Assembly: GCA_902785755.1 (NCBI GenBank)
Contig: CACZZO010000009.1
Location: 1-64,000 of the forward strand
Length of the DNA stretch: 64,000 bases
Source: an uncultured Bacteroidia bacterium
Lineage (GTDB): Bacteria > Bacteroidota > Bacteroidia > Bacteroidales > F082
Direction: 5' to 3'
Numbering within the stretch: position 1 is the stretch's first letter; each line of letters starts with the position of its first letter. Under the pieces are notes generated by a model. The model searched no databases. It worked only from the letters and a program-made list of their open reading frames with translations, and was not told where the DNA came from. The position numbers were made by a program, and so were the translations under genes. Positions 27,991-31,846 of the stretch are shown here, piece by piece.

Positions 27991-28353
27991 TTAGATGGCA
28001 CAAGCCCAGCCAAACTTTCTGGAGATTTCCTGAAGCAACCGTCTATCGCCGAATGGAATGGTAATCGATACCGTTTCCTTTTGTCGATTCCTTTCGGCAA
28101 TGTTAGCCGAGTCAATATCATACTGGGTTTGCAAATTCATCCAGATTTCAGCAGGAACATCCAAGGCTTTTTCCAAAGCCATCGCAACGGCAAGAGAAAC
28201 AGAGCGTTTGCCATTAATGGTTTCGCTGAGAACGGAAGGCTTAATGCCCGTCAACTCAGACAATTGCTTCTGCGTCATGTTTCGCTCTTTTAATTCATCC
28301 TTAATCAATTCGCCAGGATGAGTCGCGATAAATGGTGTTTGTTTCTTATTCAT
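27991..28353 (-). CDS. higA: HigA-type antitoxin
   Basis: The 120-residue protein has the HigA signature: THPGELIKDELKERNMTQKQLSELTGIKPSVLSETINGKRSVS, a helix-turn-helix with the family-specific start, then AVAMALEKALDVPAEIWMNLQ. HigA binds HigB, blocks its ribosome-dependent mRNA cleavage and represses the operon. The start overlaps the higB stop by eight bases, the usual toxin-first order. Two 19-bp direct repeats upstream of higB (28699-28737) are the likely operator. Confidence 0.93.
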   Translation of the reverse strand: MNKKQTPFIATHPGELIKDELKERNMTQKQLSELTGIKPSVLSETINGKRSVSLAVAMALEKALDVPAEIWMNLQTQYDIDSANIAERNRQKETVSITIPFGDRRLLQEISRKFGWACAI

Positions 28354-28663
28354 AATGTTTTGAAATTTCTTGTAACAATGCGTTGACTATGATTCCTTTA
28401 TCATCAGGCAAACTCTTAAAGAACAATCGGTATTGGGCATTGAGCCAAACCGTTTCGACACCTTTCAAATCACCTTTCTTTTTCTCATAATGCAGAGATT
28501 TGATGGTATAAAGGTCTTCGACACGCCTCGCCGCTTTGAGGTAGTTCACCGACTTAATGTATTGTTTCACGACGTCTTGAGACAACTTCTTGTATTTATG
28601 GTCTTTAGTCGAACCGCATACATAAAGTTCCTCCAATGCCTTATCGTCAAATTTGATGTTCAT
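28346..28663 (-). CDS. higB: HigB/RelE-family toxin
   Basis: The 105-residue protein matches the RelE/HigB toxin fold: an N-terminal helix pair (KALEELYVCGSTKDHKYKKL), then LYTIKSLHYEKKKGDLKGVETVWLNAQYRLFF, the core beta-sheet with the conserved R in AQYRLFF. HigB toxins cleave mRNA on the ribosome. The gene precedes and overlaps higA. It lies 78 bp after the DUF262-HNH gene and has its own promoter box at 28684-28691, so it can be expressed apart from the methyltransferase operon. Confidence 0.92.
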   Translation of the reverse strand: MNIKFDDKALEELYVCGSTKDHKYKKLSQDVVKQYIKSVNYLKAARRVEDLYTIKSLHYEKKKGDLKGVETVWLNAQYRLFFKSLPDDKGIIVNALLQEISKHYE

Positions 28664-28741: not shown

Positions 28742-29854
28742 TCACTTCCCGCTCTTCCGTCGGTTGCAGTCGCGGCAGAGCATTTGGCAATTCTCGGCCA
28801 CGGTGCGACCACCCTCCACCCACGGCGTGATGTGGTCGGCTTCCATCTGCTCGATCTCGAAATGCTTGCCACAAATGGCACAAATGCCTTTTTGCTTTTC
28901 ATAGACCTCGCGCCGCGTGTTGTCGTCGAAGGCGCGGATGCCGAGATGGCGGATGTCGTGGTCGAAAATGTAGTGGAAAATGCCCGCCTTCTTTTGCACG
29001 TCGCTGTCGGCCATCAGGCGCGAAACCTCTTGGGCGATGGCCGTGGCCGTGAGCGTCGTGTCGCGATATTGGTTGTAAAGCAAGCCCCAATCCACCGCTT
29101 TCATCTCCTTTTTGTATTTGCGCCCGAAGAGTTTCTCCGTCCAGTGAATCACGTCTTGGAAATACTGCCAAATCTCGTCGGCATCGGTGTCGTGCTGATG
29201 CTCAGCCATATATTGCTCAATCGTCTTTCCCTGCTTGTTGCCAATCCATTTCAGCGCCTTCTCGAAATAATCCTGACGGATGGGCGAACCCGACATATAA
29301 TCGGAAGCAATTTTGTAAGCCACGCAGCCCGTCTTGGAGAAACGGCGTTTGGCCTGCGTCACCCACGGCCCCGAATAGACGGCGTTGCGAATCTCCTGCT
29401 CGGTGAGTTTTTCGCCGGCGATGTTGATGATGTTGAACCATTTGAGTTGTTCCTCGTCAGTGCCTTCGCAGATATAGACTTGCAGCGGATAGTCGAGGAT
29501 GCGGTTTTGCTGCTCTTCGGTCATATTGCTGAAACCGAGCAGGTTGCCGTCGAAATTCATTAGGTATTCGCCAGCGATGAACGAGCAAATCGAGATGGTG
29601 CGTTGCTGTCCGTCGAGCAGTTCGTATTGGTCGTTGCCGACGCGCACCCAATACATCACATTGAGCGGAAATCCGTTCCATACGGTGTCCATCACGGCGT
29701 TGCGCTTCTTGTCGTCATAGACGAACTCGCGCTGGTATTTCGGGCGGATGTTGAGCCGACCGCCGTAGCCCGTGATGCCTTCCTCCTGAATGCTGAGGTC
29801 TTCGTATTGCTCAGCCAATTCGCGAATCTTGATTTGGTGAAGTTCGATTTTCAT
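28742..29854 (-). CDS. DUF262 and HNH endonuclease domain protein
   Basis: The 370-residue protein has an N-terminal DUF262 (GmrS-like ParB-fold NTPase) domain: RPKYQREFVY near residue 38, GNDQYELLDGQQRTISI near 75, with the DGQQR motif. The C-terminal HNH nuclease has CAICGKHFEIEQMEADHITPW near residue 325 and a final CRDCNRRK, giving the two cysteine pairs and the catalytic DH. DUF262 proteins act in restriction of modified DNA (GmrSD) and other defence. Here it overlaps an EcoRI-type adenine methyltransferase by four bases (ATGA), which suggests a restriction-modification pair with an unusual nuclease. The specificity is unknown. Confidence 0.87.
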   Translation of the reverse strand: MKIELHQIKIRELAEQYEDLSIQEEGITGYGGRLNIRPKYQREFVYDDKKRNAVMDTVWNGFPLNVMYWVRVGNDQYELLDGQQRTISICSFIAGEYLMNFDGNLLGFSNMTEEQQNRILDYPLQVYICEGTDEEQLKWFNIINIAGEKLTEQEIRNAVYSGPWVTQAKRRFSKTGCVAYKIASDYMSGSPIRQDYFEKALKWIGNKQGKTIEQYMAEHQHDTDADEIWQYFQDVIHWTEKLFGRKYKKEMKAVDWGLLYNQYRDTTLTATAIAQEVSRLMADSDVQKKAGIFHYIFDHDIRHLGIRAFDDNTRREVYEKQKGICAICGKHFEIEQMEADHITPWVEGGRTVAENCQMLCRDCNRRKSGK

Positions 29855-30918
29855 TGTTTTAGTTTTTTGCGGATTAATAGTCTATGATATGTTTTTTGAC
29901 AAAGAACTCCATTATGAATAATTTGTCGAGATTTGTATTCTTTAAAGTAGGAACACTTTTTATATGTTTCTATTTCAATTGCAGGTTCACAGCAACCAAT
30001 AATCTCAAATTGATTTGGATTGAATTTATCAATAAAAGTGATTGGAACCCCCATAATTCCTTCATAATCGTCAGGAATTTCAGTGTAAGTTTGGACATTG
30101 ATAGCCTCATAATTCGCGTAATTAGGATATTCGTTAGGACTATAATGCTTATACAAAATCAATTCTTCGTTATGCTTGGATACTGGCAAGTTAGTGAACC
30201 AACAAGAAGTGGAAACTCTTGCAATCTTTTTCCCATTCTCAATATGGTGATATTTTTCCCAATTATCAGGCACTTGAAAGAACATTCCAACATTGAAATT
30301 GGTATACCCAGTACGGATTTTGTCTTGCTGAAACATCCGAAAAGTTTCTTTGTAAGTCAAAGCATTAGTGTTGCCGATAATAATAAACTGCTTTTCGTAT
30401 TTTTCCAACATAGCAAGGTATTCTCTAAACAACGAGAAAGGAGGATTTGTAACTACAATATCGGATTTTTTGAGCAATTCTTTACATTCGTCACTGTCAA
30501 ACGAACCGTTTCCTTTCAACAACGACAACACATTTTTGTCGTTTTGAATCAAATACTGCACATCGGCAAGATCCACCGCACCATTGCCGTCGTAGTCTTT
30601 TACTTCCGTGATTTCCACCTTGTAAGCAATCTTCTTGGGTTCTTCATCGGTTGCATCAAACAACAAAGGCAATTCATCACCTGCAATCGGCGAACCGTTG
30701 TAGCAAGTGGCATTCAACTTTTTCAGTCCAAAAGCATTGAAATTCAGCGCAAAATACTTGAAAAAATTGCTTTCGTAAGGGTCGTCGCAATTGCAGAAAA
30801 CCACTTTGTCCTTGAAATAAGGTTTGTAGTATTTCAGTTCTTTAGCGATGTCGCCCAATTGGGTATAAAATTCATCATTTCTTGCAACTCTTGCTGCGTT
30901 AAGTGTGTTTCCTGCCAT
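29851..30918 (-). CDS. EcoRI-type adenine-specific DNA methyltransferase
   Basis: The 355-residue protein opens with AARVARNDEFYTQLGDIAKEL and contains CDDPYESNFFKYFALNF and the catalytic motif DIVVTNPPFSLFREYL (NPPF, adenine-N6 type) near residue 158. These are hallmarks of the EcoRI methylase family. It should methylate adenine using S-adenosylmethionine. Its stop overlaps the start of the DUF262-HNH gene, so the two are translationally coupled with the methylase first, as is safe for a self-modifying system. A long leader with a highly structured element (30987-31156) precedes it. It may protect host DNA from the partner nuclease. Confidence 0.9.
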   Translation of the reverse strand: MAGNTLNAARVARNDEFYTQLGDIAKELKYYKPYFKDKVVFCNCDDPYESNFFKYFALNFNAFGLKKLNATCYNGSPIAGDELPLLFDATDEEPKKIAYKVEITEVKDYDGNGAVDLADVQYLIQNDKNVLSLLKGNGSFDSDECKELLKKSDIVVTNPPFSLFREYLAMLEKYEKQFIIIGNTNALTYKETFRMFQQDKIRTGYTNFNVGMFFQVPDNWEKYHHIENGKKIARVSTSCWFTNLPVSKHNEELILYKHYSPNEYPNYANYEAINVQTYTEIPDDYEGIMGVPITFIDKFNPNQFEIIGCCEPAIEIETYKKCSYFKEYKSRQIIHNGVLCQKTYHRLLIRKKLKQ

Positions 30919-30986
30919 AGATTGATAGCATTTTGTGCATTGCTACCAATCCACTTGGGGCAGAAAAGAAAAGTGAGCATATCCAC

Positions 30987-31156
30987 TCGCGTTCACGGGA
31001 GGTCCGGAAAGAAAACCCGCCAATCACCATAGATACACCCACACTGACTTGCATCAGTGTTAATGGTGATTGTGGGAAGTTCCGTCACTTCCGTGAACAT
31101 TTGCTATTCTAATTCTGCAAAGAAATTAGTTTTCCGGACCTTTTTCTCGAACGCGA
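30987..31156 (-). ncRNA. Large multi-helix structured element in the methyltransferase leader
   Basis: Six perfect helices can be drawn, all nested: 30987-30994 with 31149-31156 (8 bp); 31000-31010 with 31131-31141 (11 bp); inside these 31021-31030 with 31063-31072 (10 bp) capped by 31041-31047 with 31054-31060 (7 bp); 31075-31080 with 31087-31092 (6 bp); and 31109-31114 with 31124-31129 (6 bp). This is a closed multi-branch fold. An alternative helix, 30991-30998 with 31091-31098, would exclude the outer stem, so a switch is possible. The strand is assigned from the box at 31257-31264, but the fold exists on both strands. It could be a leader RNA, a small RNA or a MITE-like palindrome. Confidence 0.6.
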
Positions 31157-31256
31157 ATAATAGCCAATGCGTTGGTTTATAAATGTTTTTTGTCGTTGCG
31201 CTCAATGCGCTTCGGTCATTTCTTGTTTTGTTTGGTTAGACTTTGTGTTGAGGGTG

Positions 31257-31264
31257 CAAAAATA
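31257..31264 (-). promoter_or_regulatory. -7 box TATTTTTG upstream of the structured element
   Basis: The only clear minus-strand TAnnTTTG box between the methylase start (30918) and the Abi cassette. It implies a leader of about 330 nt that includes the structured element. Confidence 0.5.
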
Positions 31265-31351: not shown

Positions 31352-31405
31352 GACCAATCTCACCACGCGAGTTGAAAAACAGCGTACCAGGGTGAGACTT
31401 TTTTT
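31352..31405 (+). ncRNA. Abi-associated hairpin RNA, locus C
   Basis: A 7-bp perfect stem, TCTCACC (31358-31364) with GGTGAGA (31391-31397), encloses 26 nt that can add an inner ACGC/GCGT helix (31365-31368 with 31382-31385). CTTTTTTTG follows directly. The box, CAGCG after it, AATC at the stem base, stem size and T-tract match the minus-strand cassettes at loci A and B. Here it precedes the Abi gene in the same direction, ending 13 nt before its start. Confidence 0.55.
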
Positions 31406-31417
31406 GTTTTTAGGCTT

Positions 31418-31846
31418 ATGGAGTATAACAAACAAACACTTGACACACCTGACTTGATCGCCTTGTTGAAGCAACGTGGACTTGTCATCACCAATGAGCA
31501 AGAAGCACTTAAGACGCTCTCTGTCATCAGTTATTTCCGATTGGCTTGCTATTTCCGCCCTATGGAGGCAGACAAGCAGACACACAAATTCCGCGAAGGT
31601 AGTACGCTTGAACAAGTAATGGCTCTCTATGAGTTTGACACAGCTTTGCGCGATATGGTGTTTTGTGCCATCCGACAGATTGAAGTGGCATTACGCACCC
31701 GAATCAACCATCACTTCTCGAGAAACCATACCCCTTTTTGGTTCTCTCAAGTCGATTTCAAGGCTTTGCTCACAAAATATCCAACCGTTGACACCGCCGC
31801 TATGGGCTTCCCCCGTGGCTGGCAGCAAGAACCTCTTTGGCATTAA
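31418..31846 (+). pseudogene. Abi_2-family protein with in-frame internal deletion, locus C
   Basis: The 142-residue product keeps the Abi_2 N-terminal half, including SVISYFRLACYFRPM, FDTALRDMVFCAIRQIEVALRTRINHHF and PFWFSQVDF. It also keeps the family's typical extreme C-terminus, LLTKYPTVDTAAMGFPRGWQ then EPLW. The middle, where the RxxxxH HEPN active site normally lies, is absent: the two parts join near residues 110-116 without breaking the frame. Full-length relatives are usually well over 250 residues. The protein should therefore lack RNase activity, while its hairpin RNA cassette upstream is intact. It belongs to a different subgroup from loci A and B. The expected length is from memory of the family. 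Confidence 0.75.

Follow-up and report, generated by a model that had tools for sequence, protein, structure and literature searches.

A conserved, structured RNA of the Bacteroidales probably constitutes a new class of bistable cis-regulatory leader, which would gate the gene downstream of it and would serve a regulon of defence and surface-modification genes. The reasons are that conserved helices of the RNA compete with each other and that genes unrelated to one another have a hairpin of the RNA at their start codon; the proposed role as a gene switch has good support from this comparative evidence. The regulation of restriction-modification and other defence genes in bacteria is poorly understood and, to our knowledge, RNA-level control common to many unrelated defence genes has not been described. 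The leader would provide a defined switch with competing helices, together with a list of target genes across many Bacteroidales genomes.

The window is a 64,000-nucleotide stretch of a contig from an uncultured Bacteroidia bacterium, and all parts of the RNA described below lie on its minus strand. The RNA precedes an EcoRI-family adenine methyltransferase gene (29851-30918, minus strand; PF13651, E 2.8e-128; PADLOC MTase_II), which is followed by a gene for a DUF262 (GmrSD_N)-HNH nuclease (28742-29854, minus strand; PF03235 and PF01844; PADLOC REase_II, E 1.4e-137). According to PADLOC and Pfam, these are a methyltransferase gene and its cognate nuclease gene, which make up a type II restriction-modification operon. 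The genes overlap by 4 nt and have one leader for both, and for this reason the leader should act on methylase and nuclease together. The earlier note had suggested that the element times the methylase before the nuclease; this is not supported, given the overlap and the single leader, and the occurrence of the RNA before single genes and before non-restriction genes. Its broader proposal, a regulatory leader of the methylase/DUF262-HNH operon, is supported, the RNA ending next to the methylase ATG. Homologues precede the same gene pair in many Bacteroidales.

The element was originally delimited as 170 bases (30987-31156) containing more exact pairing than chance would produce. The perfect arms of 8, 11 and 10 bp and an alternative 8-bp helix are present as described, and the smaller hairpins appear in predicted folds. 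The folding energy of the minus strand is -67.8 kcal/mol compared to a mean of -42.4 kcal/mol for 200 shuffled sequences (z -6.85) and that of the plus strand is -65.7 kcal/mol (z -7.02, 200 shuffles); none of the 200 shuffles was as stable, on either strand. The element is therefore real, but it is not the whole unit. It is the core, from P2 to P2, of an RNA of about 250 nt, and helix P1, pseudoknot PK2 and the start-codon hairpin lie outside the 170 bases or reach past them. The whole leader (30919-31170) has a conserved 5' end, GCATTGGCTATTATT, and its last base immediately precedes the methylase ATG; covariance model R2 matches 30916-31170 at 183 bits. A scan of species genomes for the methylase gene yielded 28 loci, and at 21 of them, all Bacteroidales, the conservation has a sharp upstream start at GCATTRGCTATTATT and extends to the start codon. 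The length of about 250 nt (31170-30919) follows from these two boundaries.

The only minus-strand promoter that the earlier note rated as good, at 31257-31264, reads TATTTTTG and is indeed a Bacteroidetes -7 box (TAnnTTTG). Of 106 leaders, 75% have this motif somewhere in the preceding 250 nt, compared to 16% (sd 3) in dinucleotide shuffles, and its distance to the leader is mostly 60-100 nt. The enrichment supports the view that the RNA is transcribed as a leader, presumably from a housekeeping-type promoter 60-100 nt upstream of it. A short GCGC...GCGC hairpin is found at about 31196-31213, some 30 nt upstream of the window leader, and likewise at many other leaders.

RNAalifold, when applied to an alignment made from sequence only, gave few helices, P5 being hypervariable, and for this reason the analysis turned to two covariance models, R1 and R2. 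Covariation was measured on 69 model-aligned homologues, with the per-helix figure for P2 taken from 67 distinct sequences. Helix P2 (31149-31156 with 30987-30994) is paired in 98.9% of cells and has compensatory changes in 6 of 9 pairs; helix P3 (31131-31141 with 31000-31010), a perfect helix of 11 bp, is paired in 97.8% and has compensatory changes in 7 of 9 pairs. Taken together in the 69 sequences, P2 and P3 have 98.4% of their cells paired and show 187 double changes, where shuffles lead one to expect 53; both helices belonged to the model, which somewhat favours the pairing percentage and does not favour the compensatory changes. Hairpin P3c (31109-31129) is predicted by folding, and hairpin P4 (GGAAGT...ACTTCC, 31075-31092) is evident in the sequence; P3c is found at the same place in relatives, as is a variable hairpin corresponding to P4. 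Hairpin P5b (31042-31059; TCAGTG/CACTGA in plus-strand order), also part of the model, is paired in 95.5% of cells of the family, with 26 double changes compared to 7 in shuffles.

Two further helices are pseudoknots, and their figures are unbiased because neither was in the model. PK1 is formed by GTTCACGG (31091-31098) and CCGTGAAC (30991-30998), with 91% of cells paired and 33 double changes compared to 15 in shuffles. It is the alternative helix of the earlier note, which was right to give it weight: it is conserved and shares four bases with the 3' strand of P2. PK2 is formed by GTGGGTGTATC (31032-31042) and GATATGCTCAC (30973-30983, in the P7 region), with 11 of 11 standard pairs, 98.6% of cells paired and 39 double changes compared to 6 in shuffles; RNAalifold recovered it unaided on an earlier alignment. 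When the partners were slid by 1-3 columns, pairing fell to 20-66% for every helix tested (P2 with P3, PK1, PK2 and P5b). A loss of pairing in homologues would have spoken against a structured RNA; the homologues keep the pairing through compensatory changes. The leader is thus predicted to fold into a multi-branched core (P2, P3, P3c, P4 and P5) with two pseudoknots.

One strand of this fold has two partners. Alignment columns 163-168 pair with columns 144-149 in P5b and with columns 244-249 in PK2, and both pairings covary. As judged from the alignment, P5b and PK2 are a conserved choice between competing helices, although a single static fold might contain both the pseudoknots and the hairpins. 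The 5' arm of P5b and the loop of P7 form a conserved direct repeat, the complement of which lies between them. The P7 region with its T-rich tract occupies 30960-30986. The 14 nt after PK2 contain on average 7.9 T, and a T run of at least 4 is present in 80% of copies compared to 10% of control windows. This order of P5b, PK2 and the P7-U tract suggests that control may be exerted on transcription as well as on translation. A transcription attenuator alone, with P5b, PK2 and P7 plus the U-tract as the 1:2, 2:3 and 3:4 helices and the start-codon hairpin as a secondary feature, is possible but not probable. The direct repeat with its intervening complement and the T-rich tract are what such a device would contain, and members that have only the core retain P7 and the T run without the start hairpin. 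However, most members have a short P7 stem rich in A/T, the P7 of the window copy is weak, and the position of the start-codon hairpin is strongly conserved.

The start-codon hairpin of the window, GATTGGTAGC...GCTATCAATC (30920-30951; 30951-30942 with 30929-30920), ends 1 nt before the ATG. At 85 loci with unrelated genes its stem usually has 9-12 bp and mostly ends 0-5 nt before the ATG (median 2 nt); where the distance is longer, the script often chose the P7 hairpin instead. The 5' end of the RNA is complementary to the 5' arm and loop of this hairpin, with which it competes by forming helix P1. In the window P1 consists of GCATTGGCTAT (31160-31170) and GTAGCAATGC (30937-30946), the latter being common to P1 and to the 5' arm and loop of the hairpin, and the duplex has an energy of -11.8 kcal/mol. 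The mean over the homologues is -10.1 kcal/mol compared to -5.3 kcal/mol with shuffled 5' ends. With the 5' end of another variant it is -9.9 kcal/mol, so the own 5' end has no gain over that of other variants. P1 is backed by complementarity and sequence conservation, not by covariation.

These pairings suggest that the leader takes two mutually exclusive forms. In the proposed ON form, P1 would arise between the 5' end and the 5' arm of the start hairpin and both PK1 and PK2 would form, by which the start codon would be exposed and the hairpin of P7 and the U-tract weakened. In the proposed OFF form, P5b, the full P2 and P7 would form, and the hairpin of 9-12 bp beside the ATG would block initiation. 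The conserved core is presumably the receiver of a signal, which could be a metabolite, a protein or a physical condition. One uniform output mechanism may fail, since the group with small HTH-like genes has no start hairpin and keeps P1, and a core-only group has neither P1 nor the hairpin. The variant without the start hairpin (L152-L160, L165, L167 and L168) is found before a near-identical HTH-like protein of 105 residues in many genomes of the genus. The core-only RNA (L203, L211 and L217), in which the T-rich tract is kept, lies 74-82 nt before a gene for a small P-loop ATPase.

The genes behind the RNA are diverse. According to BLAST, 58 of 106 first genes encode the EcoRI-family methylase, and at least 5 more were read by eye at loci without a listed ORF; the locus set was seeded with methylases, which biases this share upward, but the RNA by itself led to the unrelated genes. 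Some contigs are present in two collections and so appear as more than one locus. The conserved small HTH-like protein, for which there is no Pfam match, accounts for 14-15 of the 106. Other restriction genes behind the RNA are Tsp45I, MmeI, Eco57I, D12, an N6_N4 methylase and ResIII-HNH, as well as type III methylases and a type I/IIG-like protein. Defence-like genes include an FRG-domain protein, which matches PADLOC PDC-S15, and a PLD-helicase. Surface enzymes are represented by glycosyltransferase family 2 (GT2), GtrA, acyltransferase 3 (Acyl_transf_3), a phosphoethanolamine-transferase-like sulfatase, a GDSL hydrolase and DUF2334. Because the same RNA precedes several types of restriction-modification systems, genes that modify surface glycans or lipids, and small HTH regulators, it may coordinate a regulon of phage defence and the cell surface. 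It could also be used to find new defence genes, the candidates being whatever follows the RNA. Methylase-specific autoregulation, or a SAM-type sensor, is weakened as an explanation by the presence of the same leader on glycosyltransferases, acyltransferases, sulfatases and GDSL hydrolases.

The leader resembles riboswitches with translational or attenuator platforms in several respects. It has a conserved, structured 5'-leader domain with covariation and, at the level of sequence, mutually exclusive helices beside the start codon and the putative terminator. Like them it is large and pseudoknotted, has a closing helix P1 set against a start-codon hairpin, and is common to several unrelated genes. 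It differs in its gene set, which serves restriction-modification and changes to the cell surface instead of a metabolic pathway, and in that it matches no riboswitch of Rfam. A more specific form of the switch reading, which we put forward tentatively and with some doubt, is an undescribed riboswitch-like class that would sense a signal common to all copies, such as a metabolite linked to infection or growth, and co-regulate the anti-phage and cell-surface regulon, with P5 as an identity tag of each copy. If a ligand exists, it would name a signal by which these gut bacteria adjust the level of their phage defence and alter their surface.

JUMPstart/ops and EAR are antitermination leader elements common to surface-polysaccharide operons, and the present leader is likewise spread over surface genes. 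By this analogy it might be a binding site for an RNA- or DNA-binding regulator, such as a specialised NusG/UpxY-type antiterminator or the small HTH protein, the fold being a recognition element and not a ligand sensor. The distribution over surface and defence genes and the copies before small HTH proteins would suit such a site, but we consider it unlikely: the operons are short, and the fold, which has two pseudoknots and ends at the start codon, is much larger than known ops-type elements. Homologues of the small HTH protein are present in 88 of 99 genomes of the genus, with or without the RNA; its presence is thus non-discriminating, and the protein was rejected as a dedicated trans factor.

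Of 393 genomes of the order, 24 contain the RNA according to covariance model R1. Model R2, which was built from a more general form of the RNA, detected it in 54 of 173 genomes of the family and, in two other Bacteroidales families, in 8 of 71 genomes of the one and 15 of 18 of the other. Outside these, it was found in 1 of 394 other genomes drawn from the phylum, as a weak match. Four copies are present in the genome of the window; they have diverged from one another, and each runs directly into the start codon of a gene. Two of these genes are further EcoRI-family methylases, so that all three methylase genes of this type carry a homologous leader, and the fourth copy precedes an Eco57I-type methylase. 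Phage or plasmid cargo was rejected as an origin: searches of 50,697 phage records and 72,556 plasmid records gave no copy, and viral contigs contained no match to the exact patterns of the RNA.

The P5 stem is hypervariable. Its arms (31063-31072 with 31021-31030) form a perfect helix of 10 bp in the window, and the stem (31021-31072), here and in all homologues, is replaced en bloc between otherwise near-identical leaders, the pairing being kept by compensating changes. Own arms pair at a mean of -20.4 kcal/mol compared to -10.2 kcal/mol for swapped arms. In many pairs of elements that are 97-100% identical elsewhere, only 37-68% of P5 letters are in common. In some close pairs P5 has changed more than the four-fold degenerate sites of the gene, by 33% compared to 6% between the window and one relative (L033); in other close pairs P5 is unchanged. 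Outside P5, leaders can be as much as 100% identical before genes that have reached saturation at their four-fold sites (window and L023), which indicates either strong constraint or an exchange of leaders by recombination.

A hypervariable paired stem, an elaborate fold that includes two pseudoknots, and a sharply defined 5' end would also suit RNAs that work with a protein, such as guide-RNA scaffolds and toxin-inhibiting RNAs. The leader could accordingly be processed off the mRNA and act in trans as part of a ribonucleoprotein, with the downstream gene as its partner, and the core-only form located away from the start codon fits this view. It is nevertheless quite unlikely that the RNA works in this way. 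The downstream genes are mutually unrelated and therefore offer no common protein partner, the 3' end is set at the start codon, which a trans RNA does not need, and the two arms of the variable stem remain complementary to each other, as those of a free guide would not. A MITE-like element, which the earlier note had offered as an alternative, or a recombination-site DNA element, the folding of which would be a property of the DNA, is refuted: the inverted ends (P2 and P1) and the near-identical leaders before diverged genes could be so explained, but the genome holds four diverged copies instead of many near-identical ones, their position is fixed to start codons, the G-U pairs and compensatory changes occur in the transcribed direction together with pseudoknots, and the phage and plasmid records searched contain no copy.

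The cis-regulatory leader is a new RNA family by the standard of Rfam 15 and a limited search of the open literature. The window copy has no match in Rfam 15 at the gathering threshold and only chance snoRNA hits at E<=10, in agreement with the first impression that no RNA of this layout had been described; seven relatives gave nothing relevant at E<=1. No such leader is described in the open literature searched. HEARO and OMEGA RNAs are structured RNAs that immediately precede an ORF, and an HNH protein belongs to their module. The present RNA likewise lies before an ORF in a module with an HNH protein; it differs by having no match to HEARO of Rfam, by the lack of the HNH gene in most other contexts and by the lack of an adjoining IscB/TnpB-family ORF among the first genes listed. 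In the EcoRI and Eco29kI systems, antisense RNAs from reverse promoters inside the genes control restriction-modification (PMC3874152), which is likewise control of an EcoRI-type system at the RNA level. The present RNA differs from these in being a structured sense leader that is also found before non-restriction genes.

Some minor observations concern the genes around the leader. The methylase (29851-30918, minus strand) contains an EF-hand/dockerin-like stretch, DYDGNGAVDLADVQYL, within the methyltransferase domain. Directly behind the nuclease gene there is a HigB-like toxin and HTH antitoxin pair (27991-28663, minus strand), which is kept in the relative L033. On the plus strand, an Abi_2 gene (31418-31846) spans only positions 2-78 of the 184-position profile; its place is occupied by a different small gene in the relatives L023 and L033. 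A hairpin with a T run (about 31353-31405) lies just before the Abi_2 gene.
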